Part shown: positions 4,175 to 62,809 of the stretch, piece after piece
Layout of the letters: the number at the start of each line of letters is the position of its first letter
Numbering within the stretch: position 1 is the stretch's first letter
Assembly: GCA_002928535.1 (NCBI GenBank)
Contig: PERG01000012.1
Span: forward strand, 1 to 64,000
DNA length: 64,000 bases
Reading direction: 5' to 3'
Origin: Methylotenera sp.
GTDB lineage: Bacteria; Pseudomonadota; Gammaproteobacteria; Burkholderiales; Methylophilaceae
Position numbers and translations under genes: made by a program
Notes under the pieces: generated by a model
Seen by the model: the letters and a program-made list of their open reading frames with translations, nothing else
Database searches by the model: none
What the model was told of the DNA's origin: nothing

Positions 4175-7100
4175 TTGCTCAGCTCATACGCTGGTCAGCC
4201 AATAACCGCTTGCTGGTGTTGCTGGCCACACTCATGGTGATTGCATGGGGAATATTCGCCATGCTTAAAACGCCTTTAGATGCGATTCCTGACTTATCTG
4301 ACACACAGGTCATCATCCGTACCCAATGGCCTGGCCAAGCGCCGCAGATTGTTGAGAACCAGCTGACTTATCCACTCACTACAACCATGCTTTCCGTGCC
4401 TGGTGTGAAGACGGTGCGTGGCTATTCATTCTTTGGTGACTCTTTCGTTTATATATTATTCAACGATGGTACCGACCAATATTGGGCACGATCCCGCGTA
4501 CTGGAATACTTGAGCCAGATTTCCTCAAAGTTGCCCAAAGGCGCGAATCCTAGTTTAGGACCAGACGCGACAGGCGTAGGCTGGGTATATGAATACGCGT
4601 TGGTGGATAAAAGCGGCAAGCACGACTTGGGAGAATTGCGAGCCTTACAGGACTGGTTCCTCAAGTTTGAGTTGAAGACCATTCCTGGTGTAGCTGAGGT
4701 CGCCACATTAGGCGGTATGGTGCGCCAGTATCAGGTGCAGGTTGACCCTGATAAGTTGCGTAATTACCGCATACCGCTCTCAAAAGTCGTATCAGCGATT
4801 CAATCTGCCAACCAAGAAACAGGCGGTGCTGTGGTGGAAACCGCGGAAGCTGAGTACATGGTTCGAGCACATGGCTACCTAGAGTCGCTTGAAGATTTTC
4901 GTAATATTCCACTCATGGTGAGTAGTAGTGGTACGCCAATATTATTATCTGATGTTGCGCACATTCAAATCGGGCCTGAACTTAGGCGAGGTGTAACCGA
5001 GTTAAATGGTCAAGGTGAAGTCACGGGTGGCGTCATTGTGATGCGTGCGGGGCAAAATGCCCTAGAGGCGATTGATGCAGTGAAAGCCAAGCTTGCTACC
5101 CTCAAAAAAAGTTTGCCTGAAGGTGTAGAGATTGTGACGACCTATGACCGGTCGCAACTGATTAAACGTGCGGTAGATAACCTCACGCACAAACTGATCG
5201 AAGAGTTCATTGTGGTGGCTTTGGTGTGTGCTGTATTCCTTTGGCATTTCCGCTCAGCTTTAGTCGCTATTGTTGCTTTGCCTATCGGTGTATTGGTCAG
5301 TTTTATCGTGATGTACTATCAAGGCGTCAATGCCAATATCATGTCGCTAGGCGGTATCGCTATTGCCATCGGCGCCATGGTCGATGCCGCGATTGTAATG
5401 ATAGAAAACGCGCATCGGCAGCTTGAGCATTATAAAAATACACATGTTGAACCGAACAATAATCAGCGTATTAAAGTGATTATTGATGCCGCCAGCGAGG
5501 TTGGACCGGCATTGTTCTTTTCCTTGCTTATCATCACCTTGTCGTTCATTCCAGTGTTCACACTAGAAGCGCAAGAAGGCAAGTTATTCGCGCCTTTAGC
5601 TTTTACCAAGACCTATGCGATGGCCGCAGCCGCAGGATTATCCGTGACATTGATTCCGGTGCTGATGACGATCTTCATTCGTGGACATATACGACCTGAA
5701 CATGACAATCCACTCAATCGTGGACTAATTGCCATTTATAAACCACTGCTCAGTAAAGTCTTGCATTACCCAAAAGTTACATTAGGTGTCGCCCTCATTT
5801 TAGTGCTTATCACGCTTTATCCACTAAGTAAGCTTGGTAGTGAGTTCATGCCGCCACTGGATGAAGGCGATTTACTCTATATGCCAACGGCGTTGCCAGG
5901 ACTCTCTGTTTCCAAGGCTTCGGAGATACTGCAATTGAGCGATAGGCTCATCAAAACCGTACCTGAAGTGAAATCAGTATTTGGTAAAACTGGACGTGCC
6001 GAAACAGCAACAGACCCTGCGCCATTGGAAATGCTGGAAACCACTATACAGTTCAAGCCACGTGATGAATGGCGTGCCGGCATGACACCTGAAAAACTCG
6101 TGAAAGAACTGGATGCACGACTCAAAATCCCAGGTATGGCTAATGTTTGGGTACAACCAATTCGTAACCGTATCGATATGCTATCCACTGGTATCAAAAG
6201 CCCGGTAGGTATCAAAATTGGTGGTGCTGATTTAGCTACTCTAGAAAAACTAGGTGAAGAAGTCGAACGGCTCATGAAAAAAGTACCTGGTGCCAGCTCC
6301 GTGATCGCTGAGCGTGTCACTGGTGGGCGCTACATTGATGTCAAAATCGATAGACTAAAAATCGCCCGTTACGGTTTGAATATTGATGATGTGCAGATGT
6401 TGGTATCTACTGCAATTGGTGGCGATAACATCGGCGAAAAAGTTGAGGGTTTGGCACGTTTCCCAATCAACGTTCGATTCCCTAGAGAACTACGCGACTC
6501 GGTAGAAAAGCTTAAATCTCTGCCTATCATCACTGAACAAGGCGCGACTGTTCCTCTTGGTGAGGTCGCAGAAGTCAAAGTGTCCGACGGACCACCTATG
6601 ATTAAGAGTGAGAATGCTCGACCAAATGTCTGGGTATATGTGGACATTCAAGACCGTGATTTGGGTGGCTTTGTAAAAGATGCCAAAGCCATGCTGGATA
6701 AAGAACTGCAATTAACAGCAGGTTACTCGCTAGCCTGGTCTGGGCAGTTCGAATACTTTGAGCGTGCTTCTAAAAGGCTTAGCTATGTAGTACCAATGAC
6801 TTTGGGCATCATATTTATTATGCTGTTCTTGGCTTTTAAACGTATTACACCAGCCATACTCATACTAGGTAGTTTACCTTTCGCATTAGTAGGTGCGGTA
6901 TGGTTTCTGTACTTCTTAGGGCATCACTTCTCGATTGCCAGTGGCGTCGGTATGATTGCTTTGTCAGGGCTAGCTGCGGAGTTTGGCATCATTATGCTGG
7001 TGTATTTAGATGATGCGATTGAACGTTATCGTGCCACCGGTAAACTCAATAATGAAGAGGATTATTATGCTGCATTGATTGAAGGAGCAGCGCTCAGAGT

Positions 7101-7293
7101 CAGACCAAAAGCCATGACAGTGGCAGTGATTCTAGCTGGCTTGATACCTATCCTTATCGGTACTGGTACAGGCTCGGAAGCGATGAGTCGTATCGCGGCG
7201 CCGATGGTCGGTGGAATGTTGACTGCACCATTGTTGTCACTATTTGTATTGCCGGCGGCGTACATGTTGTTAAGGAAAAAAGATAATGGCTAA
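4171..7293 (+). CDS. cusA: CusA-type heavy-metal RND efflux transporter
   Basis: 1040 residues, the normal size for the heavy-metal efflux (HME) RND family. It has an N-terminal transmembrane helix ([20 protein letters not shown]), two large periplasmic loops and two blocks of helices. The TM4 proton-relay motif [16 protein letters not shown] is present with Asp and Glu. DLSDTQV and the [19 protein letters not shown] region are typical of the Cu/Ag (HME4) subgroup. Driven by the proton gradient, it would move Cu(I)/Ag(I) through CusB and the TolC channel. Specificity for Cu/Ag rather than Co/Zn/Cd is inferred from the CusF-like domain and Met-rich neighbours. It overlaps cusB by 4 bp and the next gene by 8 bp. 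Confidence 0.92.
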
Positions 7294-8002
7294 TTGCTGT
7301 GAAGATAAATCTTGTGAAATCGACGCTTTACGTGAAAAGCATAGCCGTGTCTTAAAGATTGTTTTAGTCATTAATGCGGTAATGTTTTTAGTGGAAAGCA
7401 CCACTGGCTGGCTGGCGCACTCAACATCTCTGATGGCAGATGGACTTGATATGCTTGGTGATGCATTAGTTTACGGAATGAGCTTATATGTATTAACCAG
7501 AAGTCAGCAACAGCAAGCCAAAGTAGCGTTAGCTAAAGGTGGTTTCATGATGCTATTTGGTCTATTTGTTTTAGGTGATGCAATATATAAGGCAATTCAT
7601 CCCGTGTTGCCTGATGCAGTCACAATGGGAGTGATTGGCGCTTTAGCACTAATTGCAAACTTAGTTTGCTTCATCCTTTTATATACTCATAGGGAAGACA
7701 ATCTAAATATGAGCTCTACTTGGTTATGCTCACGCAATGATTTATTCGCTAATGTAGGAGTTCTGGTAGCTGCTGGCTTGAGTTACGTTTTTATTTCCAA
7801 GTGGCCAGATATAGTCATAGGAACTGCAATCGCAATATTGTTTTTAAAATCTTCTTGGTCTGTAATCAAAGAAGCTATCGACGCTATTAAGCAACCAGAG
7901 CCTATAGGTGTTCAATTCAATACAAAGCCAGCAACTCAAAGTCTAAATATTAAAATCCAAAGAAAAACTCACTCGTCTAAACGGAATAAATCATTCGAGT
8001 GA
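7286..8002 (+). CDS. Cation diffusion facilitator (CDF) family transporter, short form
   Basis: 238 residues, about six transmembrane helices. The N-terminus is Cys-rich ([19 protein letters not shown]). TM2 carries the metal-site Asp residues in [15 protein letters not shown], and TM5 carries [12 protein letters not shown], both diagnostic of CDF proteins related to CzcD/DmeF. The usual cytoplasmic C-terminal ferredoxin-like dimer domain is replaced by a short basic tail of about 40 residues. It overlaps cusA by 8 bp and is the last gene of the efflux operon. It would export a divalent metal from cytoplasm to periplasm, complementing the RND pump. The metal cannot be told from sequence. Confidence 0.85.
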
Positions 8003-8010
8003 CCGCTGAA

Positions 8011-8034
8011 GGCCGGAAGTAGTCCTTGAATAAC
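8011..8034. repeat. Degenerate intergenic palindromic repeat, copy F
   Basis: GACCGCTGAAGGCCGGAAG followed by TAGTCC resembles the GTCCGCTTT-GGGCC-GAAAGCGGAC family but with several mismatches. It lies in the 263-bp gap after the efflux operon, just past the CDF stop. Confidence 0.4.
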
Positions 8035-8217
8035 TTAGTACTAAATAGTGGCAATGAAACGTAATAACACGAGGTTTTCTTGAAATAGTAATTAGTGGCT
8101 TTTTTCACAGTAATACTCATAAAGAAACTTAGTGTCTAATGAGACCAAGGATAGGGAATCACAAGTTTTGCCTTATGAACAGTGGGCTATTTAGCCAAAC
8201 TTATCAATTGTGAAATA

Positions 8218-49594: not shown

Positions 49595-52261
49595 TTAAAC
49601 CATTAATTGATTTAACCAAGCTTCAACATCGTTACTTGGCATTGGTTTACCCAGCAAATAGCCTTGCAGTTCATCGCAGCCCATCAAAATAAGTTGTGCC
49701 CGCTGCTCTTGAGTTTCCACTCCTTCTGCGATGACTTTGAGTTTTAGGGCATGCGCAAGCAAAATAATGGTGGAAACAATGGTCCGCTGGTCAGCATTAC
49801 TGTTTAATTCGGAGATAAAAGAACGGTCGATTTTGATACTATTAAGTGGAATCTTGGTGAGATAGCTAAATGAAGAATAACCAGTACCAAAGTCATCAAT
49901 AGAGATATGGAAACCTTCGTCTTGGAGCTGCTGCAATATTGGAATCAAGCTATCAATATTTTCCATCAACACGGACTCGGTGATTTCCAGATCAAGGGCT
50001 GCTGATTCCTCACGACTGTATGTAATAATTTTATCGTTGCTTAATGCAGCCTCATCTATATGCCCCCATTTTGAGTTGCGAATGACATTCACAAAATCAG
50101 GATCTTTTAATTGTGCTGCTGATACATTCACAGCAATTGGTGGCGGGTTTAGCCCGAGCTTTTTCCACTGGAGATAATCCGTTGCGGCCTGGCGAGTTAG
50201 CCACTTTCCAACTTCGAGAATCATGCCGGAATCTTCCAGGATGGAAATGAACTCAAGCGGAGGAACAAAACCACGTTCCGGACTAATCCAACGGATGAGC
50301 GCTTCCATTCCTACCAGGCGCCCACTATTAGCAGCATGCTTTGGTTGATAGTACATAACGAATTGATTTTCAGTAATTGCCTGACGTAGTTGGCTTTCCA
50401 TTAGCAATTGCTCAGTGACGCGTGCATTCATATCTGAGGTATAGAACACATATTCAGTACCGGATAACTTGGCTTTTTTTAATGCCACTTCTGCATTACT
50501 TATTAGTACATCAACCTCTCTACCATCTGTTGGGAATACAGATATCCCACAACGTGTAGAGACATTCAGCTCTTGATCGCCAATCAGGAATGCTATGTTA
50601 AATGGCTCCACTAGATATTGCTGTAATGCATGGGCTACTTCTGCTTCATTATGTAACCCCGAAATAGCAATGGCAAAGCTGTTGCCACTGATACGTGCAA
50701 TGTTAACCGGTTGATCTGTAGACAATCGCTGCGCTATCATTTGCAGCAACTGGTCACCCTTAATTTTACCGAACGAATCATTGATCATCCCGAAATGTCG
50801 TATATCAATTAACAACAAAGCCAGAAAGGTATGGGCTTGTGCATTGGATTGGATTTCGTGATCCGCACGCTCTAGAAAAAGCTGTCGGTTAGGTAGGCCA
50901 GTTAGTATGTCAAATAAGGTTGCATAATTCAACGCAGCTTGTTTTTCCTGGTAATTGAGTGCAAAAGAGATGTCATCAGCCAAGGTTGCCAGTAATCTCA
51001 TCTCATCAGTGTCGAATGTGTCGGCATCTTCAGAATACATGACCATAACGCCAGCAAATTGCTCATTAATAGTGATTGGGAATGAAGCGAATGATTGAAA
51101 GCCCTTTTGCAACAACAATTTCTCGCGTCTAAGTCCCTCCTTACCACCGTGGACAATACTGGACTCTTTCAAGTTGACTGTAATAGGCACCTTTAAGTCG
51201 ATATTTTCATTCAATGTATAATCCTGCTCAGAAAGCGCCCCCCCCAAATTGAGTCGAAATCCATTCAGGATGCCACGTTGATCCCCTGCGTAGACAGCAG
51301 GCGTCAACACCTGAGTTTGATTATCGATAAAACCACACCACGCTAGCGAGAAGCCTCCCTCATCTATTGTAATGCGGCAAGCTTCTTCTAATAGTTCAGT
51401 TCGTTCTTTGATACGTGAGATTGCGGAATTGATACCACTTAACATGCTATGCATGCGGTTAAGTCGTGATAAACGTAACTCTTGATTTTTACGTTCGGTG
51501 ATATCTGTAGCTACTCCTAATACCATAGTGGCCTTGCCATTCTCCATAATGGGACGTTTGATCGTTTGTAACCAGCGTACTTTCCCCGTAGCATCCGTGA
51601 TGTGTTCTTCCGGGATCAATACCTCCTGTAACGTCTCCATCACAAAACGATCACGATTTTTGAAAAATTCAACCTCCTCTATATTGGGATTGAAATCGGC
51701 ATCAGTTTTCCCTAGCATGTGGTTGACTGTGGTGCCATAAGCCTCTGCCAGGACCTGATTAACCAGCACAAACTGTCCATCATAATTTTTGGCAAAAATG
51801 AAATTTCGGTCAAGATCAATGACCTGCCGCAGGAATTTATGCTGGCGGACTATCTCCTCTTCTGCTTCACGTCGCGCCATCTGTTCAGCTTTTTCTACCA
51901 AGGCACGACGTACAGCAGGACTTAATCGCTGCATTCGCTGTTTTAATACATAGTCAGTGGCACCAGCTTTCAGACACTCCACCGCTTCTTCTTCACCGAG
52001 CCTGCCTGAAATCACAATAACCGGTGTTTCAGGCCTATGTTTCCGAACATATTGCAGTGCTGACATACCATCATAGTCCGGTAGGTTGAAGTCTGTCAGT
52101 ACGATGTCAAAGGTGCCTTCATTCAGTGCAGACTCAAAAGTTTGTTTATTGTTAGCCCGAGTAATAGCATAAGATTCACCACCGGATTCCAGCTTTTGTT
52201 GAATCAACTCAGCATCAAACGGATCATCCTCCAGGTGTAGCAGTCGAATTAACACGTCCAT
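49595..52261 (-). CDS. REC-PAS-GAF-GGDEF(degenerate)-EAL c-di-GMP phosphodiesterase, output of the chemosensory operon
   Basis: 888 residues. Receiver domain (about 5-125; LHLEDDPFDAEL, phospho-acceptor Asp in VLTDFNLPDYDG, Lys in YVLKQ). PAS (about 140-265, ending VLGVATDITERK), GAF (about 270-440), GGDEF-like (about 450-615) and EAL (about 620-888). The cyclase signature is degenerate: ISGNSFAI replaces GGDEF, so no cyclase activity is expected. The EAL side keeps GMEALIRW, NVSAAQL, ITESVLMENID and DDFGTGYSS, so phosphodiesterase activity is likely. It is the last gene of the operon, 22 bp after a single-domain regulator, and takes the place that the diguanylate cyclase WspR has in Wsp systems. 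Confidence 0.9.
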   Translation of the reverse strand: MDVLIRLLHLEDDPFDAELIQQKLESGGESYAITRANNKQTFESALNEGTFDIVLTDFNLPDYDGMSALQYVRKHRPETPVIVISGRLGEEEAVECLKAGATDYVLKQRMQRLSPAVRRALVEKAEQMARREAEEEIVRQHKFLRQVIDLDRNFIFAKNYDGQFVLVNQVLAEAYGTTVNHMLGKTDADFNPNIEEVEFFKNRDRFVMETLQEVLIPEEHITDATGKVRWLQTIKRPIMENGKATMVLGVATDITERKNQELRLSRLNRMHSMLSGINSAISRIKERTELLEEACRITIDEGGFSLAWCGFIDNQTQVLTPAVYAGDQRGILNGFRLNLGGALSEQDYTLNENIDLKVPITVNLKESSIVHGGKEGLRREKLLLQKGFQSFASFPITINEQFAGVMVMYSEDADTFDTDEMRLLATLADDISFALNYQEKQAALNYATLFDILTGLPNRQLFLERADHEIQSNAQAHTFLALLLIDIRHFGMINDSFGKIKGDQLLQMIAQRLSTDQPVNIARISGNSFAIAISGLHNEAEVAHALQQYLVEPFNIAFLIGDQELNVSTRCGISVFPTDGREVDVLISNAEVALKKAKLSGTEYVFYTSDMNARVTEQLLMESQLRQAITENQFVMYYQPKHAANSGRLVGMEALIRWISPERGFVPPLEFISILEDSGMILEVGKWLTRQAATDYLQWKKLGLNPPPIAVNVSAAQLKDPDFVNVIRNSKWGHIDEAALSNDKIITYSREESAALDLEITESVLMENIDSLIPILQQLQDEGFHISIDDFGTGYSSFSYLTKIPLNSIKIDRSFISELNSNADQRTIVSTIILLAHALKLKVIAEGVETQEQRAQLILMGCDELQGYLLGKPMPSNDVEAWLNQLMV

Positions 52262-52283
52262 GCCAAGCCCCTTTCGTAATAGG

Positions 52284-52727
52284 TCATTTACTTTCCAGTG
52301 GTAGCTCGTTGAGTACTGCCCAGTAAAGTCCTAATTCTTGAATGGCTTTTACAAACTGGCTGAAATCAATGGGTTTGACTACGTAAGAATTGGCACCTAG
52401 TTGGTAGCTACTCAGCAAATCTCGCTGCTCCCGAGAAGAGGTGACCATGACTACCGGGATCATTCGTAGATGTTGGTCGGCTTTTATTTGGCGTAACACC
52501 TCTACACCATCGATCTTGGGCATTTTGATGTCCAAAAATATTACCATCGGTTGCACATCATTCCGATCTTTGTATCTATTGCGACGATATAGGTAATCCA
52601 GTGCATCCGCTCCATCCCGAACGACCATCACATGGTTGGCGAGGCGACATCCCTCAAGCGCCTCCAAGGTCAGTTGAATATCCTCTAGATTATCTTCTGC
52701 CAGCAAAATGTGCTTTAAACTCTGCAT
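52284..52727 (-). CDS. Single-domain response regulator (Rcp1-like)
   Basis: 147 residues from ATG 52727. The frame is open further upstream, but this ATG overlaps the preceding kinase stop as TAATG and has GGAGAA before it. The receiver has LLAEDNLEDIQLT, phospho-acceptor Asp in VIFLDIKMPKIDGVE, the Thr/Ser switch in VVMVTSSRE and the Lys in YVVKPIDFSQF. The long loop with YRRNRYKDRND is typical of Rcp1-type regulators, which accept phosphate from phytochrome-like kinases. No output domain. The upstream REC-kinase is its probable partner. Confidence 0.88.
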   Translation of the reverse strand: MQSLKHILLAEDNLEDIQLTLEALEGCRLANHVMVVRDGADALDYLYRRNRYKDRNDVQPMVIFLDIKMPKIDGVEVLRQIKADQHLRMIPVVMVTSSREQRDLLSSYQLGANSYVVKPIDFSQFVKAIQELGLYWAVLNELPLESK

Positions 52728-53995
52728 TACTGACTTCTCCTGTGATTGGGCAAAGAAAAATAAAATGTAGCACCTTGGTCTGGCTTGCCTTCTGCCCACG
52801 TGCGTCCGCCATGGCGCGCTATAATGCGCCTTATGTTGGCGAGACCGATACCCGTTCCTTCGAATTCTTCGGCCCTATGGAGACGCTGGAACACTCCAAA
52901 AAGTTTGTCTGCGTATCGCATATCAAAACCAACCCCATTATCACGCACAAAAAATATGGTTTCTTTTGTGCTAGGCTGGACGCCAATTTCAATTTCGGTA
53001 GTTTCGCGGGTTCGAGTGTATTTTGTGGCATTGGATAGCAGGTTGGCAAACACCTGCCGTATCATCGCAGAGTCGGCTTTTATTGGCGGTAAGCTGGCAA
53101 TACGCCAGTTGATCTTTCGCCCCTGAATTTCAGGACCTAAATCCCGAATGGTTTCCTGTACCAATAAGGTTACGTCCATTTCTTTACGCATCATTTCGAC
53201 CCTTGCCATGCGTGAGAAAGCCAGCAGATCGTCAATTAGACACCCCATCTTTTTTGCTGCTTCAGCAATAGTGTTTAGATAACTCAGGCCTTTGTCATCT
53301 AGCAGGTGTGCGGCATTTTTTTCCAGTAAACCAAGAAAACCATCGATATGCCTAAGTGGCGCGCGTAAATCGTGGGAGACTGAATAGGAAAACGATTCCA
53401 ACTCCTTATTGGCATTGTCTAGTTCAGTATTGAGGATTTGCAACTTTTCATGATTTCGATTGAGCTCCTTGTTCCGCTGGATAGCGGCATCGTAAGTTGA
53501 AAGCAGCAGGTTAAGAATTTGCAGTCGATCCGCGGTAATAAAATGGCGATTTCCGTTGAAATAGATTTCTACTCCCATGCCTACATTATTTGATCTACGC
53601 AACGCCTGGTTGGCCAGGGCATAACGCACACGACTGATTAGATATTCATTTTCATAGGGCTTCAGTACGAAATTATCGGCGCCGCATTCCAGCCCACGAA
53701 TGACGTCATGGGGATCAGACATGGTGGTGACTAGAATGACCGGGATATGGCGTAATGTTTCATCCGTCTTGACGTGTCGCGATAGTTCGTAGCCATCCAT
53801 TTCCGGCATGTTGATATCACTGATTACCAGCGCGGGTCTGAATTTCGCCATCATTTCCAGCGCAATGCGGCCATTAGCAGCAACGCTTACTTCATACCCA
53901 TGTTGTTCTAATGTGAATTGCAGTTGCTGTGCTTGAGTTGGGCTGTCCTCCGCGATTAAGATTTTCGCTGCAGATATTTCATTGTCCCGGTTCAT
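52727..53995 (-). CDS. Hybrid receiver-histidine kinase
   Basis: 422 residues, no membrane span. N-terminal receiver (about 10-130; LIAEDSPTQAQQ, Asp in LVISDINMPEMDGYE, Lys in VLKPYENEYL). A coiled-coil linker (about 165-205) leads to HisKA with the phospho-acceptor in YSVSHDLRAPLRHIDGFLG. The ATPase domain has FANLLSNATKYTR, VRDNGVGFDM and GTGIGLANIRRI. The kinase half resembles bacteriophytochrome-type kinases. It lies 2 bp after cheB and overlaps the next regulator by 1 bp. The N-terminal receiver may be phosphorylated by the CheA of the operon, linking the two relays; this is inference. Confidence 0.9.
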   Translation of the reverse strand: MNRDNEISAAKILIAEDSPTQAQQLQFTLEQHGYEVSVAANGRIALEMMAKFRPALVISDINMPEMDGYELSRHVKTDETLRHIPVILVTTMSDPHDVIRGLECGADNFVLKPYENEYLISRVRYALANQALRRSNNVGMGVEIYFNGNRHFITADRLQILNLLLSTYDAAIQRNKELNRNHEKLQILNTELDNANKELESFSYSVSHDLRAPLRHIDGFLGLLEKNAAHLLDDKGLSYLNTIAEAAKKMGCLIDDLLAFSRMARVEMMRKEMDVTLLVQETIRDLGPEIQGRKINWRIASLPPIKADSAMIRQVFANLLSNATKYTRTRETTEIEIGVQPSTKETIFFVRDNGVGFDMRYADKLFGVFQRLHRAEEFEGTGIGLANIRRIIARHGGRTWAEGKPDQGATFYFSLPNHRRSQ

Positions 53996-53997
53996 GG

Positions 53998-55065
53998 TTA
54001 GCTCCTCGAAGCAGCATTTTTATGATTAACCAATGCAATCAGCGCATTGGCGATTCTATCAGGTGGCAACACATGCGTAGCTGCCCCCAAGGCAATAGCC
54101 ACACCCGGCATGCCGTGCACCACCGAGCTGTCCTTGTCCTGTGCGATGGTAATGGCGTGGAGATCCTTCATTACTTTCAATTCTATGGCCCCATCTCGTC
54201 CCATCCCGGTGAGCAAGATACCCAAAGCTCTTGGGCCATAGACAGCCGCCAATGAACGGAATAAAAACGCTACGCTAGGTCGCAGATAGTTTTCTGGATG
54301 TTCACGGCTCAACAAGATTTTACCGTCAGTACCTATCCCCAAATGAAAGTCATCAGGAGCAAGGTAGACATGACCTGGCAGCGGCATGATGCCGTGAGAA
54401 GCAATCTGAACCTGCAAGCTGGTCGTTTGGTTTAACCAGTCGCACATGCCGGTAATAAAGCTGGGTGTAATATGCTGCACTACAAGAATTGGCACGGCGA
54501 AATCTTTATTAAGACCGGATAAGATCGTTTGTAACGCTGGCGGACCGCCAGTAGATGCACCAATCCCGATTACCTTGATTTCGATCGGAGCACGCTGCCA
54601 CTGTTCCTGTTGAATTTTTGCAGCCATTAGTTCAGGTCTGGCTGTACGGCGTACCACTTTGACCTCAGACATGAGTTTGACTGTTTCCAGCATGGTTGCA
54701 GCCGTCACTTCAAAATCCTCGTGTGCATGCCCCAAAGGTTTTTCAATACAAGCAATGGCGCCTGCTTCCATCGCCCTGAAAGTGATCACGGTATCTTTGA
54801 CATTGCTAGTGGCGCTGCAAATAACAATAGGCACCGCCTTAGTTTCCATAATGCGGCGGGTTGCTTCGAAACCATCCATGCGTGGCATGTTGATGTCCAT
54901 CAGGATGACATCAGGTTTGCTGTTCTTAACGAATTCAAGCGCAGCCTGACCATCGGCAACGGCACCGATTACGCTGATTTTCGGATCGGATTCGAGCAAG
55001 TGAACTAGAAACATACGGATCACCGTTGAATCTTCCGCCACCAGTACTTTGATCTTGTTAGCCAT
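53998..55065 (-). CDS. cheB: Chemotaxis-type methylesterase CheB (WspF-like)
   Basis: 355 residues. Receiver (about 5-120; VLVAEDSTVIRMF, Asp in VILMDINMPRMDGFE, Lys in CIEKPLG) joined to the methylesterase domain (about 160-345). The catalytic residues lie in IGIGASTGGPPALQ (Ser), LVVQHITPSF (His) and LTGMGRDGA (Asp). It removes methyl groups from the MCP of the operon to adapt the signal, activated when the receiver is phosphorylated by CheA. It begins 19 bp after cheA. Confidence 0.94.
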   Translation of the reverse strand: MANKIKVLVAEDSTVIRMFLVHLLESDPKISVIGAVADGQAALEFVKNSKPDVILMDINMPRMDGFEATRRIMETKAVPIVICSATSNVKDTVITFRAMEAGAIACIEKPLGHAHEDFEVTAATMLETVKLMSEVKVVRRTARPELMAAKIQQEQWQRAPIEIKVIGIGASTGGPPALQTILSGLNKDFAVPILVVQHITPSFITGMCDWLNQTTSLQVQIASHGIMPLPGHVYLAPDDFHLGIGTDGKILLSREHPENYLRPSVAFLFRSLAAVYGPRALGILLTGMGRDGAIELKVMKDLHAITIAQDKDSSVVHGMPGVAIALGAATHVLPPDRIANALIALVNHKNAASRS

Positions 55066-55084
55066 GGATGTATTAGGTCTCTAG

Positions 55085-57340
55085 TTAAATTAACCGTTGT
55101 ACGGCCTCAAGGAGATTGCCCTGATCGAAACTGCTCTTGATCAGGTACGCATTCGCGCCAGCTTCAAGTCCGCGCTCTCGATCATCCCGCGTTTCAAGTG
55201 CTGACACGAGTATGACTGGTAAATCAGCTAGTTTGTGGTCGGCCCGGATGCGGGCAGTCAGGTCAAATCCATTCAAACGTGGCATTTCCACATCAGAAAC
55301 CACCAGGTCAAAATGTTCAGCCCTGAGCAGGGTAAATGCCTCCATGCCATCTACTGTCGTTTTAACACGATAGCCCGCTGACTCTAGAATGCCTTTTAAT
55401 AACATGCGTGAGGTAATTGAATCTTCAGCCACCAGTACGGCTTTGGCTTTTGCTGTCGTAGATTCGGCGGTGACTTGCGGAGATGTCTTCGCCATGAGGC
55501 GCGCAGATTGAAGCAGGTCAACAATGTTGAGTATGGGCGCAATCCGGCCTGAGCCTAATATCGTTACCGCAGAAACATTACGTATACGTGAGAAAGGCTT
55601 GCGCAAAGGCTTAACGAGTATTTCCTGTTCGTCTAATACGGCGTCCACTGCAAATGCAATCCGCTGATCCCCCTCGCCCAGTACTATGACAGGGACCGCG
55701 ATTACGAGACTCTCCTTGCGCTCTGGCATTGGTAATTCAAGTATCTCGGCAAGAGGTACCAAAGCCAGAGTGCTACCACTAAAAGTGATGGTCTCACGGC
55801 CTTCAATGGTCTGAATATCGGCCTGTCTGGCGCGTGTTACTCCCTCTACCAGCGTGGTAGGGACTACCATGGTTTGCCCAGCCACTTCGATGATGATACC
55901 TCTGAGGTTTGCTAATGAAGTTGGCATGGTGATGGTGAAAACAGTGCCAATGCCTAACTGACTGCTTACCGAAACCTCGCCGCCCAGTTTGGTGACTTTT
56001 TCCCGCACAATCGTCAGTCCAAGTCCACGTCCTGACAGCTGCGTGATCATTGGGCTGGTAGAGACTGCTGAATGAAAAATCAGTGCCAGTGATTCGGCCT
56101 CATTGAGCTGCATAGAGTCTTTTGCTGAGATGAGCCCGTGCTTGACTGCCGATGCTTTTACTTTGTCGATGTCGATACCGGCGCCGTCATCTTCAATAAT
56201 CAATTGCACTTTGTTGCCGCTGATTTGCGACACTTCAAGCTTGATGGTCGCTTTTGACGGCTTGTTTTTTTTAAAGCGGTCATCCGGCATTTCAATGCCA
56301 TGATCGATACTGTTACGCAGTAAATGGATAAGCGGATCTTTGAGGCTCTCCAAAATCCGCTTGTCGATCTCGATGTCGTCGCCCTCAATTCTGAACTCAG
56401 CTTCTTTACCTTGGTCACGGCATAGATCACGCGCTACTTTGGGCAATGATGCAGAGATTGTGGAAAACGGTAACAACAGTAATTTCTTGGAGCCTTCCAT
56501 CAAATCGTCTACCAACTTGCCAAAGTGATAGCCATCTCGCTCCATGGTGTAGCCAAGCGTTGCTGTCTGACTTTCGACTAATTTGAAATAATCCATGCTC
56601 CAATCGAAAAAATCTAGTAAGCGTGTTACACCTGCAGCAGAACTGCGCTTCTCTTGCATAGGCAAGTGATGACGTAATTCCCGTACTTCCGGTTCTAACG
56701 TTGTCCATGCTTTCCGCCATGCTTCGAAATGCTCAGAGAGCACGCGCAGGTCAATAGCCCGCTGGCGGACAGTAAGCTTCACCATGAGCATCTCTTCTGC
56801 TTGTAATAAGCTGGATTCCAGCTTAGCCACGGCGACTCGTACCGTTTCCTCGGACGCGGTAACTTGCTGCACCTTTGGCACGGGCATGGTAGGCTTTGCA
56901 ATAGGAGTATCAGACTGTGTGGACAGAGTCCCCACGGAGATTGTTTCAACTGTTTGGTCTGAAAACGATGCCTCACGCTTCTGAGAATCAGTAGTTGTAT
57001 CAGAGGGTGTAGTCAGCGCAGAAGTGATGATATTAAGGTCACGGTGCAGAGCATCTAGCGCCTCCAGTGACGGCGCACTTTGTTGCCGTTTCCAGGTTGC
57101 GAATACATCTTCCAGTAACTGACATGACGATTCAATGTCTACAAAGTCAACGGCCCGCGCAGCGCCTTTCAAGCTATGTGCGGCGCGGAACACCAACTCA
57201 ATGATGTCGTGCAGCGCCTCTGGGACGGGTGTTTTTTCCAATTCCAGCAAACCGTCTGAAATCACTTGCAAATGCTCTTTAGCTTCGACTTTGAAAGTCG
57301 CTTGGAGCTTTTTGAGAAATTCCTCGTTTTTGCTGATCAT
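55085..57340 (-). CDS. cheA: CheA-receiver hybrid histidine kinase (WspE-like)
   Basis: 751 residues from ATG 57340; a TTG at 57358 overlapping the MCP stop is possible but has no ribosome site. The HPt domain carries the phospho-acceptor in LVFRAAHSLKGAARAVDF (His about 55). No CheY-binding P2 domain is seen. ATPase: HLLRNSIDHGIEMPDD, IEDDGAGIDIDK, SGRGLGLTIVREKV. A CheW-like domain (about 480-620) follows, then a C-terminal receiver (about 640-750; LVAEDSITSRMLL, Asp in LVVSDVEMPRLNGFD, Lys in AYLIKSSFDQG). This single HPt plus C-terminal receiver layout is that of WspE and FrzE rather than motility CheA. Confidence 0.93.
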   Translation of the reverse strand: MISKNEEFLKKLQATFKVEAKEHLQVISDGLLELEKTPVPEALHDIIELVFRAAHSLKGAARAVDFVDIESSCQLLEDVFATWKRQQSAPSLEALDALHRDLNIITSALTTPSDTTTDSQKREASFSDQTVETISVGTLSTQSDTPIAKPTMPVPKVQQVTASEETVRVAVAKLESSLLQAEEMLMVKLTVRQRAIDLRVLSEHFEAWRKAWTTLEPEVRELRHHLPMQEKRSSAAGVTRLLDFFDWSMDYFKLVESQTATLGYTMERDGYHFGKLVDDLMEGSKKLLLLPFSTISASLPKVARDLCRDQGKEAEFRIEGDDIEIDKRILESLKDPLIHLLRNSIDHGIEMPDDRFKKNKPSKATIKLEVSQISGNKVQLIIEDDGAGIDIDKVKASAVKHGLISAKDSMQLNEAESLALIFHSAVSTSPMITQLSGRGLGLTIVREKVTKLGGEVSVSSQLGIGTVFTITMPTSLANLRGIIIEVAGQTMVVPTTLVEGVTRARQADIQTIEGRETITFSGSTLALVPLAEILELPMPERKESLVIAVPVIVLGEGDQRIAFAVDAVLDEQEILVKPLRKPFSRIRNVSAVTILGSGRIAPILNIVDLLQSARLMAKTSPQVTAESTTAKAKAVLVAEDSITSRMLLKGILESAGYRVKTTVDGMEAFTLLRAEHFDLVVSDVEMPRLNGFDLTARIRADHKLADLPVILVSALETRDDRERGLEAGANAYLIKSSFDQGNLLEAVQRLI

Positions 57341-57354
57341 TTTGACTTCACTTT

Positions 57355-57633
57355 TCAAACTTGATAGCGCTCGACCATTTGTTTAAGCCGTTGGCCGAGC
57401 TCACTCAGGTTACGCGCTGCGATTTCCAGTTGCTGCGCACTTGCCACGTTTTGACTACTGGCAAGCTTAATACTGTCCATAGCCACCGCCACCTGATCCA
57501 CTCCTACCAGTTGCTCTTGACTCGAAGCCGCAATCTGCGTGGCCGCCTGTGCCGAATCCATGACGCTGCCAGTTAACACCTGAATGGCTTCACCAGCCAC
57601 CTCGGTTTGGTGGACTCCGACTTCTACCGCCTT
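57355..57633. repeat. Exact direct repeat in MCP genes, block 1 (partner 59007-59285)
   Basis: These 279 bp, coding for the receptor C-terminus, recur without a difference that I can find at 59007-59285. Block 2 is 58112-58233, identical to 59286-59407 (122 bp). In the second gene the two blocks touch, so the 478 bp that separate them here are missing there. Confidence 0.9.
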
Positions 57634-58992
57634 GCTGCCTTGCTCGGTGGCCATCACAGCAGTTGTGGTGGCTTTCTGGATATCGCCAAGAATGGTGCGT
57701 ACCTGGTTGGTAGCTTGCCGGGATTGCTCAGCCAGACTCTTCACCTCTTGGGCGACAACGCTGAAACCTTTGCCATGCTCACCTGCCTTGGCGGCTTCTA
57801 TCGATGCGTTGACAGCTAGTAAATTGGATTGTGTAGCAAGGTCTTCAACTGAGGCGATGATCTGGCCAATGGCCTGATTCTGTTCGGAGAGCCGTACCAT
57901 GCTGGCGGCAATGGCATTCATTTGCTGACGGATGTTATCCATCCCTTTATTCACATCTTCAATGGATTTGTATCCGCTCTGGGAACTTTGCGCTGCTTTC
58001 TGGGCGCTGTCGGAGACCAGCTTGGCTTTTTGGCTGGACATCTGCGCGGTCTGACGTACTTCTTCTACCGTTGTGGTCGTTTCACTCACGGCCACAGCCG
58101 ATTCACTAGCGCTGGCAGAAAGCTGGGTGGTTGAAGCCACAATCTCGCTGGCGGCTGAACCTAATACGTTGGCACCTTCCAATAATCCTCGGATCTGTTC
58201 GCGCAGATTCTCCGACATGCGCGCAAAGGCATTCCTTAACGCACCTACTTCATCTGTACGCTGCTCCGTTAATAACTGAACTCTTAAATCGCCCGCGGCC
58301 ATACGCTCAGCAGATCGGGTAATTTCAATAAGTGGCCTAGAAATTAGCTGGTTCAAAACAATCGTCAAAACCAAGCCTATTAGAAGTGCCAGACCGCCTA
58401 GAATGGTAAATGTGCGCATTGACTTTGTGGTTAGTTTATTGGTGGCGGCTACCTTCACCTTGGCATATCCCAACATCTCTTTTCCAAGTTCTAATGAAAT
58501 AGTATTCATCTTTTCATAACGGTCAGTCTGAATTCCCTGGATCTTCCTCAGTGCCTCCTTATTCTGACCGGAAAATATCTCGGTAAATACGATTTCCCGT
58601 GTCTGCCGAAAAGCTGCCAGCGTGGTTTTCAACTCATCAAGCTTGGTCATGAACTCTGAATTATTTTGGTAAACATACCCGAGTTGTTCCAGTGAATCTT
58701 CAACTACTTTGACACGACTTCTAATGTCTTGGACCAAGAACTGCTGCTTTGCACGGTCCGGGGTGAGGATCATCTGCAACATTTGAGAGCGTTGCCGGTT
58801 CAAATTAGCCCGTAATTCGACCATGTTGATCACACCCACAAACTCTTGGCCCATCAAGCGTTCCTGTGAATTGCGGATGGACATGATAGTGGTATAAGCG
58901 ATGAAGATGACCATCCCCAACAACACGAACATGGTCCCGAACCCCATTAGAAGTTTGACGCCAGTTTTAAGATTTTTGAACCAGTTCATCAA
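57355..58992 (-). CDS. Methyl-accepting chemotaxis protein (4-helix-bundle sensor)
   Basis: 545 residues. TM1 (about 14-34, LMGFGTMFVLLGMVIFIAYT), a periplasmic four-helix-bundle-like sensor (about 35-190), TM2 (about 193-213, ILGGLALLIGLVLTIVLNQL), HAMP (about 214-267) and the signalling domain with the conserved tip ATQSNLLAVNASIEAAKAGE and FSVVAQEVKSLAEQSRQAT. It ends in MVERYQV and has no CheR/CheB docking pentapeptide. It is the intact receptor of the operon. Its 3' part is identical in DNA to the broken receptor gene upstream. Confidence 0.93.
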   Translation of the reverse strand: MMNWFKNLKTGVKLLMGFGTMFVLLGMVIFIAYTTIMSIRNSQERLMGQEFVGVINMVELRANLNRQRSQMLQMILTPDRAKQQFLVQDIRSRVKVVEDSLEQLGYVYQNNSEFMTKLDELKTTLAAFRQTREIVFTEIFSGQNKEALRKIQGIQTDRYEKMNTISLELGKEMLGYAKVKVAATNKLTTKSMRTFTILGGLALLIGLVLTIVLNQLISRPLIEITRSAERMAAGDLRVQLLTEQRTDEVGALRNAFARMSENLREQIRGLLEGANVLGSAASEIVASTTQLSASASESAVAVSETTTTVEEVRQTAQMSSQKAKLVSDSAQKAAQSSQSGYKSIEDVNKGMDNIRQQMNAIAASMVRLSEQNQAIGQIIASVEDLATQSNLLAVNASIEAAKAGEHGKGFSVVAQEVKSLAEQSRQATNQVRTILGDIQKATTTAVMATEQGSKAVEVGVHQTEVAGEAIQVLTGSVMDSAQAATQIAASSQEQLVGVDQVAVAMDSIKLASSQNVASAQQLEIAARNLSELGQRLKQMVERYQV

Positions 58993-59006
58993 TTGATCTC
59001 CCTATG

Positions 59007-60256
59007 TCAAACTTGATAGCGCTCGACCATTTGTTTAAGCCGTTGGCCGAGCTCACTCAGGTTACGCGCTGCGATTTCCAGTTGCTGCGCACTTGCCACG
59101 TTTTGACTACTGGCAAGCTTAATACTGTCCATAGCCACCGCCACCTGATCCACTCCTACCAGTTGCTCTTGACTCGAAGCCGCAATCTGCGTGGCCGCCT
59201 GTGCCGAATCCATGACGCTGCCAGTTAACACCTGAATGGCTTCACCAGCCACCTCGGTTTGGTGGACTCCGACTTCTACCGCCTTCTGGCAGAAAGCTGG
59301 GTGGTTGAAGCCACAATCTCGCTGGCGGCTGAACCTAATACGTTGGCACCTTCCAATAATCCTCGGATCTGTTCGCGCAGATTCTCCGACATGCGCGCAA
59401 AGGCATTGCCAAGCACATCTTCGGCAGATTGAGGTTTGATGCTGGCGCGCAAATCACCCGTGGCGATCTGCTCGGCCGCATCTGCCATCCCGCGTAAATA
59501 GCGTGTCATGCGCTCGAAGGATCGAGCTAACACGCCAACTTCGTCGCTCCGGTTATCTGTCAGCACATTGACGCTCAGGTCGCCAATGGTGATGCGTTCT
59601 GCCACTGTAGTGAGATACTGTAAAGGGCGAGCGATATTACGCGCAATAATAAAACCAGATAAGGCGGCAAGCAGCAAGGCAACAAGCGTTCCTAAGAGAA
59701 TGGTTCTTTTGGCATTATTTGCATTTATCTGCGCAGCTTCAACACGTTGTTTGAGTGAGGCTTGCTCTTCACTAGCCATCTCTTCGAGTATTTGTCGGAT
59801 TTTATTCGAGAGCGTTATTCCCTTACCAGTCTTGATGATTTCAATACCCATTTTTATGCCATTGGCTTGAATTGCATCCACCGTTTCCTTCGATAGATTA
59901 ACTCGATCTTTGATTGGCATTTCTAGCATGTCCAGTCGCTGTTGTTGGCGAGGATTATCAGCTGTCAGTTTCCGTACTTCTTGAAAACTTTCATCGATAC
60001 TCCGAATTGCTATGTGATAGCGTTCTAGTTGCTGGTCTTGCCCTGTGATAGCGTAACCACGAACACTATTTTGTATGTCTACTGCCAGTGATTCTAATTC
60101 TGCGAGACGCCTCAGAACTTCGTATGTCTGCTGACGTAAATTAGACGCTTCGACGAGTTGAGTAGTGCTTTGGTAAGAGACGATACCGACCATAATAAAA
60201 ATAGCTACTATTAGGCCAAACCCCATACTAATCTTAGTGCCGACATTCCATTTCAT
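59007..60256 (-). pseudogene. Methyl-accepting chemotaxis protein with CHASE3-like sensor, internal deletion
   Basis: The start is ATG 60256 with GAGGA eight bases upstream. The N-terminal half is intact: TM1 (about 8-28), a CHASE3-like periplasmic domain (SVRGYAITGQDQQLERYHIA), TM2 (about 184-204), HAMP (about 205-258), a second HAMP-like segment and the start of the signalling domain (VLGSAASEIVASTTQLSA). There the frame is lost and ends at 59276-59278. The C-terminal 81 residues (59007-59252) continue in another frame. Compared with the neighbour, 478 bp containing the whole CheA-contact tip are missing, so the product cannot signal to CheA. It is either a true deletion between near-identical copies or a collapsed assembly. 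Confidence 0.85.
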
Positions 60257-60291
60257 GATGTAAATCCTCATCAGTAATTCATGCTAAGTAT

Positions 60292-60849
60292 CTAATTTTC
60301 CGGAATCACTTCCTCATGTACGATAATTCTTGGATCAGCCAAAATACGGTCTAAATTCAGCACCACCAGGCACTCTTTCGTTACACCTTTCAGATAATCG
60401 CTATGGATACCAGTAAGTGTTGCCAAGGGAGGTTGCAGGCTGTTTTCCGCTATATTCCGCACACCCACTATGGCATCGGCCAATAAGCCAAACTCGATAT
60501 CGTTGCCTTGAACTAGAATGATCCGGTGCAGATCAGTAATCCCTTTATCAGGCAGGTCGAAAAATTTTTTTATGTCGATGACTGGTGTGATATTGCCCCG
60601 CACGTTCACCATGCCTAATACGAAGGCAGGGGTACAAGGCATTGGAGTCAGGTCTTCAAGAGGGTAGACCTCGTGTACATGGCGTGTTTCCAATGCGTAG
60701 CATTCTTGTGCCAGCTTGAACTCGAGTAGCTCAAGCGAAGACTCTTCCAATGTGTCGTTTTGTGAAGGCTGGGCTAGCAGTTGCGCACGAGTACGCAGTA
60801 TTTTTCTGTCCTCTGCGCTCACATTACTGACTGTCATATTCTTTTTCAT
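60292..60849 (-). CDS. cheW: CheW-type coupling protein (WspD-like)
   Basis: 185 residues. An N-terminal extension (about 1-38) precedes the CheW fold (about 40-175): ELLEFKLAQECYALETRHVH, PMPCTPAFVLGMVNVRGNIT, PVIDIKKFF, and YLKGVTKECLVVLNLDRILA. It bridges receptor and CheA. It overlaps the CheR gene upstream by 4 bp (ATGA) and lies 35 bp before the broken receptor gene. A second, distinct CheW is the first gene of the operon, as Wsp systems have WspB and WspD. Confidence 0.92.
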   Translation of the reverse strand: MKKNMTVSNVSAEDRKILRTRAQLLAQPSQNDTLEESSLELLEFKLAQECYALETRHVHEVYPLEDLTPMPCTPAFVLGMVNVRGNITPVIDIKKFFDLPDKGITDLHRIILVQGNDIEFGLLADAIVGVRNIAENSLQPPLATLTGIHSDYLKGVTKECLVVLNLDRILADPRIIVHEEVIPEN

Positions 60850-62351
60850 GATACGGTTTCCATTATTGGCATGGCGTTAATGATGTCAGTCAATTGTCCT
60901 GCTGTGAGATTATCAGATTCGGGCAATACCTCTTCTGGGGCATAAGTAATTAGCAAGCGCTGTGCAATGGAAAAGTGCTTACAAGCTTCAGCTGTTTTTC
61001 CGCAATGATGAGCGATGCTGCCTAATGAAAAATAAGCCTGCACGAAGTTAGGCCGTAAAAAGATTGCTTGTTGGAAGGATGTCTGTGCCTGTTTGACATC
61101 GCCCCGCTCCATCAAAACAAGGGCGCGCATGTAATAAGCGGCTGCATCAATCTTGTCGGCTGCAATCCAGCGATCGCAGCATAACAGCGCATCTTTCAAT
61201 CGACCTAAGTTAGCGAATGCTCGCGCAAGCAGAGAGAAGGCCTCCAAATAAGAATGTCTGGGCGCCTTTTGGTTAATCATTTCGCATAGCGTATCCGCTA
61301 CTTCTGCGTAATTACCTTGGGTGTAAAGCGATTGAGCAAGGGCCAACATTGCAGACGGATCGTTTGCCTTCACCGATATTGGTTGGAATGCGGCCACGGC
61401 GGTAGGCTTGAACGGTCTCGGTATATATGCTTTGTCCGCAGAGGCCGCAAAAGGGGGGTGCGTAATCGCCGTTGACGGTCTTGAAGGATTTGTTATTGAG
61501 GGATGGTTTTTTTGAAACAGGATGGCTCCGGGATAATGCACACTCCTAAACTGCGGAAATAAGGCCTTAGATGCTTCACTTGGGCTCACTAGCAACCACC
61601 CACCCTCGATTATCGATTTGCTGAGATTGCTGATGACCTTTTGGGTCTGCGTGGGTGAGAAATACATCAGTACATTGCGGCAGAAAACCAAATCCATGGC
61701 ATTGGTATTGTTAGCTAGCGATGGGTAAGCATCTTCAACCAGATTCAAATGACCAAAATTCACCAGTTGCTTGATCTCAGGGATGAGGGCATAGCGGCCA
61801 TCAGCATAAGGTTGGAAATACCGCTTTTTAAGCCATGTTGGTGCATTACGGAATGACCATTCGCTATAAAAGCCTTTAGTTGCTTTCTCTAAAAAGCGTA
61901 GATTGATATCTGTGGCAGTAATGGTTATTTGCCAATCCCGCAAATCAGGCAGTAATTGATGTAACAATATGGCTAGCGTATAAGCTTCTTCGCCGCTGCA
62001 ACAGCCTGCGCACCAGAAACGCAAGCGCTGCTCACGGCTGCGATTCTTGCTAATTAACCCTGGTAAGATGTGCTGAGTCAGCGCTTCTAATAATGGCTTA
62101 TCTCGGAAAAAGTAGGTTTCACCTATCGTTAAATGGCTGGCCAGAATTTGTAAATGTGCTTTTTCCGGGGTTGAGGTAAGCAGCCATTCCATGCATGCCT
62201 CAGGACTCTTGAATCCAATTTCCTGCGAAGCAGCAGCAAGACCTCGCTTAAGGTCATCCCAGCGTTCGCGTGGAAAATACAGACCTATCTTTTCAGCAAC
62301 GAACTCACTGAGCTGTAACAAGTGTGAATCATGAAGGGTAGAGGGCATCAT
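60846..62351 (-). CDS. cheR: CheR methyltransferase with C-terminal TPR domain (WspC-like)
   Basis: 501 residues. CheR N-terminal helices (about 10-80), then the SAM-binding methyltransferase (about 85-275) with GETYFFRDKPLLEALTQHIL, RFWCAGCCSGEEAYTLAILL, ITATDINLRFLEKA and MDLVFCRNVLMYFSP. After a Pro/Ser-rich linker, TPR helices fill about 335-480 (MLALAQSLYTQGNYAEVADT, AAYYMRALVLMERGDVKQAQ, YFSLGSIAHHCGKTAEA). The TPR extension marks WspC-type enzymes. It methylates receptor glutamates. Overlaps CheW on both sides by 4 bp. Confidence 0.93.
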   Translation of the reverse strand: MMPSTLHDSHLLQLSEFVAEKIGLYFPRERWDDLKRGLAAASQEIGFKSPEACMEWLLTSTPEKAHLQILASHLTIGETYFFRDKPLLEALTQHILPGLISKNRSREQRLRFWCAGCCSGEEAYTLAILLHQLLPDLRDWQITITATDINLRFLEKATKGFYSEWSFRNAPTWLKKRYFQPYADGRYALIPEIKQLVNFGHLNLVEDAYPSLANNTNAMDLVFCRNVLMYFSPTQTQKVISNLSKSIIEGGWLLVSPSEASKALFPQFRSVHYPGAILFQKNHPSITNPSRPSTAITHPPFAASADKAYIPRPFKPTAVAAFQPISVKANDPSAMLALAQSLYTQGNYAEVADTLCEMINQKAPRHSYLEAFSLLARAFANLGRLKDALLCCDRWIAADKIDAAAYYMRALVLMERGDVKQAQTSFQQAIFLRPNFVQAYFSLGSIAHHCGKTAEACKHFSIAQRLLITYAPEEVLPESDNLTAGQLTDIINAMPIMETVS

Positions 62352-62809
62352 TTTGATTGCTCTAATGCTTTATCTAAAACGAGCACATCATCGGGGGAGA
62401 GAAACTTATCAAGGTTATAAATCAGTACCAGGCCATCATGGAGTTTGATTGCACCCTGAATCTGCTCAATATCAGACGAGAATTCATCAGCGTTAACGAG
62501 TAACAGCTTATCTACTTCAATTACGTCTTGAGGCGCATCAATCAATAACGCCACTTTATGCTTAGTAGTTTGAGCAATCAGAAAATGATGGCTTGGATTA
62601 AGCTCACTCTCCGGCAAATTCAAGCGCTTGCGGAGATTGAGCACGGGGATAATTTCACCTTTGTAATTAATAATGCCAAGTATGGCAAGAGGCGCGTTGG
62701 GTAGTAGTGTTATCTCGGTAGCATTAACAAGGCGTAATGTATTGGGCAGTGGCAAAGCAAAGCGCTGATCTTCAACAAGAAATACGACCAGATTGATAAG
62801 TTCGGCCAT
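62348..62809 (-). CDS. cheW: CheW-type coupling protein (WspB-like), first gene of the operon
   Basis: 153 residues of CheW fold: LINLVVFLVEDQRFALPLPN, PLAILGIINYKGEIIPVLNL, KVALLIDAPQDVIEVDK and IYNLDKFLSPDD. It differs clearly from the second CheW of the operon. It overlaps CheR by 4 bp. Upstream is an AT-rich region with no gene that I can support, so the operon promoter should lie between about 62820 and 63250. Confidence 0.9.
   Translation of the reverse strand: MAELINLVVFLVEDQRFALPLPNTLRLVNATEITLLPNAPLAILGIINYKGEIIPVLNLRKRLNLPESELNPSHHFLIAQTTKHKVALLIDAPQDVIEVDKLLLVNADEFSSDIEQIQGAIKLHDGLVLIYNLDKFLSPDDVLVLDKALEQSK

Follow-up and report, generated by a model that had tools for sequence, protein, structure and literature searches.

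The chemosensory operon at positions 49595-62809 of the window (the whole stretch analysed here, 64,000 nucleotides of Methylotenera sp. contig PERG01000012.1) combines an array of the alternative cellular function (ACF) class with a three-gene tail, consisting of a histidine kinase with an N-terminal receiver (REC), a single-domain receiver and a predicted phosphodiesterase of cyclic di-GMP (c-di-GMP). We lean towards a relay in which the array signals through CheA to the REC-histidine kinase, and from this second kinase to the small receiver, the receiver of the phosphodiesterase or both. The genes of the tail are:

52727..53995, minus strand: REC-HisKA-HATPase protein, the proposed direct target of CheA (Pfam; receiver class; PDB matches)
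52284..52727, minus strand: single-domain receiver related to bacteriophytochrome response regulators and Rcp1 (PDB matches; receiver tree); its likely start is 52727, although the open reading frame listing begins at 52799
49595..52261, minus strand: REC-PAS-GAF-GGDEF(degenerate)-EAL protein, predicted c-di-GMP phosphodiesterase (Pfam; residue check)

The choice of the kinase as the target rests on a comparison of receivers between related operons. The receiver tree (184 rows, 120 columns) was built from the first receiver of each gene after CheB, or after CheA where CheB was unrecognised, together with the CheB receivers and those of output-family proteins outside such operons. Named loci are the best 80 of at least 569 relatives; L128, L135 and L192, copies of L085, L083 and L096, were dropped from the trees, and receivers starting beyond the first 60 residues of an open reading frame were skipped, so that four of the seven WspR references entered this tree. 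A single clade of 95 rows (SH-aLRT 96) holds 89 of the 96 first-position receivers and 5 of the 43 later ones (Fisher 1.6e-21, descriptive because the rows are related), as well as one family row, L308, which belongs to the same operon as L092. The effectors attached to these 89 receivers are histidine kinases (44), EAL proteins (26) and diguanylate cyclases (4), with none of these detected in the remaining 15, while the seven first-position receivers outside the clade include all four WspR references in the tree. EAL proteins carry a receiver of the first-position class in 26 of 26 cases at first position and in 0 of 9 at later positions, the window's protein being among the nine. In 26 loci with receivers of both kinds, the distances of first-position receivers correlate with those of CheA at r 0.76, and the distances of later receivers at r 0.18 (difference 0.23 to 0.78 by bootstrap).

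Scored against class profiles trained without the window rows, the receiver of the window's REC-kinase reaches 185.8 bits for the first-position class (next class, 109.6), and that of the EAL protein reaches 124.0 bits for a class shared with cassettes lacking CheA and 34.7 for the first-position class. By these profiles, it is the REC-kinase and not the EAL protein that carries the first-position receiver class in the window, and for this reason we propose the kinase as the target of CheA. The original prediction had taken the EAL protein for CheA's own terminal receiver and the two preceding proteins for extras inserted between CheB and the output. The first of these views does not agree with the placement of the EAL receiver in the other clade, and since this receiver belongs to the cassette clade and the first-position receiver is on the kinase, the kinase and small receiver are more likely to be the link than an insertion.

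It is nevertheless conceivable, if unlikely, that CheA phosphorylates the EAL protein's receiver directly and so controls c-di-GMP breakdown, with the kinase and small receiver as side branches. The protein has a receiver by Pfam, its gene lies tightly spaced in the same operon, and the 26 rows in which an EAL protein with a first-position receiver is the first gene after CheB indicate that CheA-EAL coupling probably exists elsewhere. The window's EAL receiver, however, falls outside the first-position class, the cassette class fits it better by 89 bits, and the same receiver type adjoins a histidine kinase in cassettes with no CheA nearby.

The terminal protein has SGNSF in place of the cyclase motif GG[DE]EF, and its EAL domain retains all nine conserved catalytic residues tested (E, N, E, E, D, D, K, E, Q); it is predicted to be a phosphodiesterase, and the original description of a degenerate GGDEF beside an EAL domain complete in the residues tested stands. 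Its top PDB match is 4rnh, a 'Motility regulator', with which it was aligned. Among ACF operons, degenerate-GGDEF-EAL outputs keep the nine residues in 21 of 22 cases, the window's included; eight further ACF outputs with an intact GGDEF motif all keep them, and in family proteins outside ACF operons the GGDEF motif is degenerate in 40 of 41 and the nine residues are present in 41 of 41. This tally covers outputs other than L110, L308, the REC-EAL proteins of L086, L151, L156 and L157, which lack GGDEF, and those that were split or ran off the end of a locus (L093, L108 and the second of L098); L104, L105, L119 and L120 were excluded from output counts. In the EAL part of the window's protein (49607-50959), about 15 residues are inserted ahead of the EITES motif, a feature seen in 0 of the 21 other aligned relatives.

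A different role for the protein, as a c-di-GMP receptor or scaffold that is non-enzymatic in practice and whose protein contacts are altered by phosphorylation, in the manner of a trigger-type protein, appears quite unlikely. It would suit both the insertion before the EITES motif and the syntenic copy in Collimonas silvisoli (L122), which has lost catalytic residues and kept the gene and its receiver, but the nine residues are conserved in the window and in 61 of 62 degenerate-GGDEF proteins (21 of 22 in ACF operons and 40 of 40 outside them, the window's included).

The tail as a whole resembles cassettes found outside chemosensory operons. We sampled 38 non-ACF loci with 41 family proteins, chosen from the best-scoring matches; CheA, CheB, CheW and CheR were found in none of the 38 stretches fetched, and a methyl-accepting chemotaxis protein (MCP) in one. 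For eleven of the 41 family proteins, the genes immediately before, on the same strand, encode a kinase and a single receiver. In seven of these eleven cassettes the kinase belongs to the same 26-row clade as the window kinase, and in five the small receiver shares an eight-row clade with that of the window. Compared with the Collimonas operon, a stand-alone cassette from genome G213 (L286) lies nearer to the window in the kinase (59 versus 53%), the small receiver (55 versus 42%) and the receiver of the EAL protein (64 versus 40.5%), whereas Collimonas is the nearer of the two in the kinase's receiver (72.5%; the cassette is without one), GAF, GGDEF and EAL domains. The part of the tail through which phosphate would pass from kinase to targets therefore looks cassette-like. 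The best PDB matches of the small receiver are 5brj (8.2e-52) and 5ic5 (7.3e-50), presumably both bacteriophytochrome response regulators (BRRs), with weaker matches including RcpA and Rcp1, and the kinase half is nearest to 8f71 and bacteriophytochromes. A BRR that forms arm-in-arm dimers is known from Ramlibacter (PMC6848086, available in part).

These groupings also bear on the proposal that the REC-kinase signals, as WspH may do, to an unlinked regulator without c-di-GMP, the EAL protein being co-transcribed and separately controlled. A kinase is the commonest first-position effector (44 of 89), and wsp mutations in Burkholderia cenocepacia left c-di-GMP unaltered according to the available part of PMC8552884. 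The small and EAL receivers, however, group with those of cassettes in which they adjoin a kinase, these kinases being in part related to the window's, and we regard this proposal as very unlikely.

In the relay that we favour, the ACF array (two receptors, two CheW proteins, CheR-TPR, CheB and a CheA with its own receiver) would place phosphate on the receiver of the REC-histidine kinase, and this phosphorylation would raise or lower the activity of the second kinase. From there phosphate would travel to the small receiver of bacteriophytochrome type, to the receiver in the PAS-GAF-GGDEF-EAL protein, or to both, and the EAL domain of the latter protein would degrade c-di-GMP; the degenerate GGDEF domain, predicted to be unable to make c-di-GMP, may act as a regulatory domain. 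The model takes its gene order, domains, catalytic residues and receiver classes from what is present in the sequence, and from there we infer every phosphotransfer step and its sign, the enzyme activity and the stimulus. As receiver phosphorylation in Rhodospirillum centenum is thought to lower kinase output (PMC3868531, available in part), the effect in the window may be of either sign.

Several observations weigh against this relay. The EAL protein bears a receiver of its own, which CheA could still reach. The receiver alignment has just 120 columns, and its rows are related, so that counts are not independent. In a held-out trial on eight alphaproteobacterial plasmid loci, five had no scorable receiver gene after CheB and one had a WspR-like REC-GGDEF protein outside the class; in the other two the class was favoured narrowly (15.4 versus 13.2 and 92.5 versus 81.4 bits), with no clear separation. 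The cassettes of L282, L294, L303 and L306 have kinases and small receivers in clades other than the window's, and the difference between G213 and Collimonas in the kinase is small and uneven along sliding windows. The closest relative operon that shares the three-gene tail, that of Collimonas, is also the one exception to EAL conservation (D for E, DN for DD and K for E), so that the tail may act there by other means than catalysis. Finally, in the R. centenum precedent, CheA3 had to be mutated in its own receiver before transfer to CheS3 was seen, and wild-type CheA3 showed none, as far as the available part of PMC3868531 relates. In L122, at 5565-8210, both the GGDEF and the EAL domain are degenerate, yet the gene and its receiver are retained.

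The degenerate-GGDEF family forms a clade of 62 rows with 100% support in an 88-row tree. Because ACF members are scattered within this clade, the GGDEF motif appears to have been lost before these proteins were recruited to ACF operons. That all ACF outputs with a degenerate GGDEF form one clade of their own was rejected once the 41 non-ACF family proteins were added, which placed them at several points; several separate recruitments are likelier. An output peculiar to this genome can likewise be dismissed, as similar outputs occur in related operons; EAL proteins after CheB are frequent among the operons examined and are already listed in the available part of PMC3447774. A tail of another type, consisting of a large REC-kinase-REC protein and then a short REC-EAL protein that lacks GGDEF, is seen in L086, L151, L156 and L157, among them Hydrogenophaga and Methyloversatilis metagenome-assembled genomes. 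In L085 (8683-14205), L174 and L087, HAMP-GGDEF genes lie between cheA and cheB and the output is a predicted phosphodiesterase; L085 has a PAS-GGDEF gene there as well.

Upstream of the tail lie the seven genes of the array:

62348..62809, minus strand: first CheW (Pfam CheW, 5e-25)
60846..62351, minus strand: CheR methyltransferase with TPR repeats (Pfam CheR, 1.7e-48, plus TPR)
60292..60849, minus strand: second CheW (Pfam CheW, 7.7e-32)
59007..60271, minus strand: MCP1, CHASE3-HAMP with a broken signalling domain (Pfam CHASE3-HAMP only, 59276-60271)
57355..58992, minus strand: MCP2, 4HB-HAMP-MCPsignal, intact (Pfam)
55085..57358, minus strand: CheA, Hpt-HATPase-CheW-REC (Pfam; CheA tree)
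53998..55065, minus strand: CheB, REC-methylesterase (Pfam, 3.5e-58; the sole CheB match of the assembly)

All ten genes of the operon are thus on the minus strand, with the expected domains found by Pfam. Adjacent genes overlap or are separated by gaps of at most about 22 bp, and from this spacing the ten genes are likely to form one transcription unit; promoter and terminator scans gave numbers of sites not above those in shuffled sequences. The gene content and close spacing given by the original prediction therefore hold, and its gene list was accurate overall except that it counted one MCP gene where there are two, the first of them broken.

By layout, the operon is of the ACF class, as predicted: it has the CheR-TPR fusion that is typical of ACF clusters (PMC3447774, available in part, which also defines the class) together with multidomain response regulators. 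The label 'Wsp-like' does not extend to descent. In a 122-row CheA tree, the seven WspE-type references, taken from operons with an adjacent REC-GGDEF gene (eight stretches were fetched, and L232 gave no CheA), form a 100% clade with the window CheA outside, and Wsp membership was accordingly rejected. The window CheA instead groups at 100% with those of Caenimonas (L121), G435 (L081), Collimonas (L122) and Chthoniobacter (L123), all of which have REC-kinase genes downstream. The order in the window, CheW-CheR-CheW-MCP-MCP-CheA-CheB, does not match the Wsp order MCP-CheW-CheR-CheW-CheA-CheB-WspR displayed by references L233, L235, L237 and L238, in which the MCP comes first, and SGNSF stands where a Wsp REC-GGDEF output would have an intact GG[DE]EF. 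An order of CheW, CheR-TPR, CheW, MCP, CheA-REC and CheB is common among operons with a similar CheA, often cut by contig ends.

As regards a WspR-type partner encoded elsewhere, a REC-GGDEF protein without EAL was seen at none of the 30 GGDEF loci fetched out of 33 in the window's own genome, and in the 300-genome search of the order with a WspR-like query this genome gave no match at 1e-50 (7 of its 81 candidates scored). Two of its GGDEF stretches, C7:40288-40758 and C17:10794-11251, have a stop codon inside or are split between frames. The assembly comprises 2.3 Mb in 41 contigs and is 87.6% complete; at that completeness a search of the genome for flagellar families, limited to the rod/hook family PF00460, gave no match. 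A search of the same genome found one CheB match, that of the operon. One other full MCP is present; its neighbours are two small receivers, a CheW and a CheA of 1718 residues (L120), and we take this cluster to resemble PilG/H/I/J-ChpA of the Pil-Chp system. A CheB match at 1e-60 occurs in 6 of 187 genomes of the window's own family, this one included, so that the operon appears sporadic in the family.

The frame of MCP1 is lost near 59288, after the CHASE3-HAMP half, and the tail is out of frame. Its 3' part is identical to MCP2 over 122 of 122 bp and at 282 of 283 positions, and between these two blocks 474 bp of MCP2 are absent. A genuinely shortened receptor is disfavoured, as the 474 bp are gone from within a stretch that otherwise differs from MCP2 by one base. 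Collapse during assembly is the most likely, though not proven, origin of the break, because near-identical tandem receptors occur unbroken in L085 and L093 (signalling DNA 99.3% and 99.6% identical over 763 bp). In the tandem receptors of the window (57355-60271), L085 and L093, the signalling-domain DNA of the two copies is 99.3 to 100% identical, and the upstream halves are unlike (in the window and in L085, one is 4HB and the other CHASE3); this near-identity next to unlike upstream halves suggests gene conversion between the copies. The contigs of several relatives begin or stop between MCP and cheA.

Our results provide a possible sequence rule by which the class of the first-position receiver would predict the target of CheA among several receivers in an ACF operon; target choice in multi-receiver Che clusters is a long-standing difficulty. 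They suggest that chemosensory arrays may change their output by taking up entire two-component cassettes, and point to families of chemosensory operons built for the removal of c-di-GMP, not its synthesis, in this case in a bacterium where the PF00460 rod/hook search gave no match.

For its first steps, the proposed relay has its closest biochemical precedent in the Che3 system of R. centenum, with which the window shares a CheA with a C-terminal receiver, a second REC-kinase and a single-domain receiver in one cluster. There, CheA3 phosphorylates a receiver of CheS3, and CheY3 is phosphorylated by CheS3~P only; CheS3, however, is a REC-REC-PAS-HWE kinase where the window has a single REC with HisKA-HATPase, the output is cyst formation, and no GGDEF-EAL gene is mentioned in the available part of PMC3868531. 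Pch of Pseudomonas aeruginosa is likewise a degenerate-GGDEF EAL phosphodiesterase with GAF/PAS domains under CheA control: its localization and activity require CheA, and a receiver adaptor was proposed by the authors and not identified. It differs in being without a receiver and in working with the CheA of a polar chemotaxis system in a cell that has flagella (PMC3861689, available in part). Bacteriophytochrome kinases and their BRR/Rcp1 partners are among the nearest PDB chains of the kinase half and small receiver, but by Pfam the window kinase has no phytochrome domain and carries an N-terminal REC in the photosensor's place.

REC-kinase outputs and EAL outputs in CheR-TPR clusters are already known. 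Counted in 2012, the outputs of such clusters comprised about 40% histidine kinases, some 20 GGDEF, one REC-EAL and two REC-GGDEF-EAL proteins (PMC3447774), and the window shares with these clusters the multidomain response regulators with histidine kinase, GGDEF and EAL outputs; a receiver-class analysis or a kinase/receiver/EAL tail is not described in the part of that paper available. Among the papers listed in the literature searched, mostly without subscription papers, none likewise reported that a cassette had been captured or that a receiver class was specific to position, and none described an ACF operon ending in a kinase/receiver/EAL cassette. In the Burkholderia Wsp H-system the output receiver protein is also a REC-histidine kinase, WspH, but wspH lies 5' of the operon as an apparently independent transcription unit, whereas the window kinase gene is directly 3' of cheB; a small receiver or EAL protein, both present in the window, is not described in the available part of PMC8552884.

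The Wsp R-system (WspA-F, WspR) shares with the window CheR-TPR, two CheW proteins, CheA-REC, CheB, a 4HB receptor and a c-di-GMP enzyme bearing a receiver, and differs in that WspR makes c-di-GMP, the MCP comes first and the CheA references form a separate clade. Taken together, the chances seem about even that ACF operons hold one position-specific, CheA-matched receiver on interchangeable effectors, and that here a whole stand-alone kinase/BRR/phosphodiesterase cassette was captured behind this receiver, giving a two-kinase relay on c-di-GMP breakdown that would be the opposite of Wsp in its enzyme and would differ from it in wiring.

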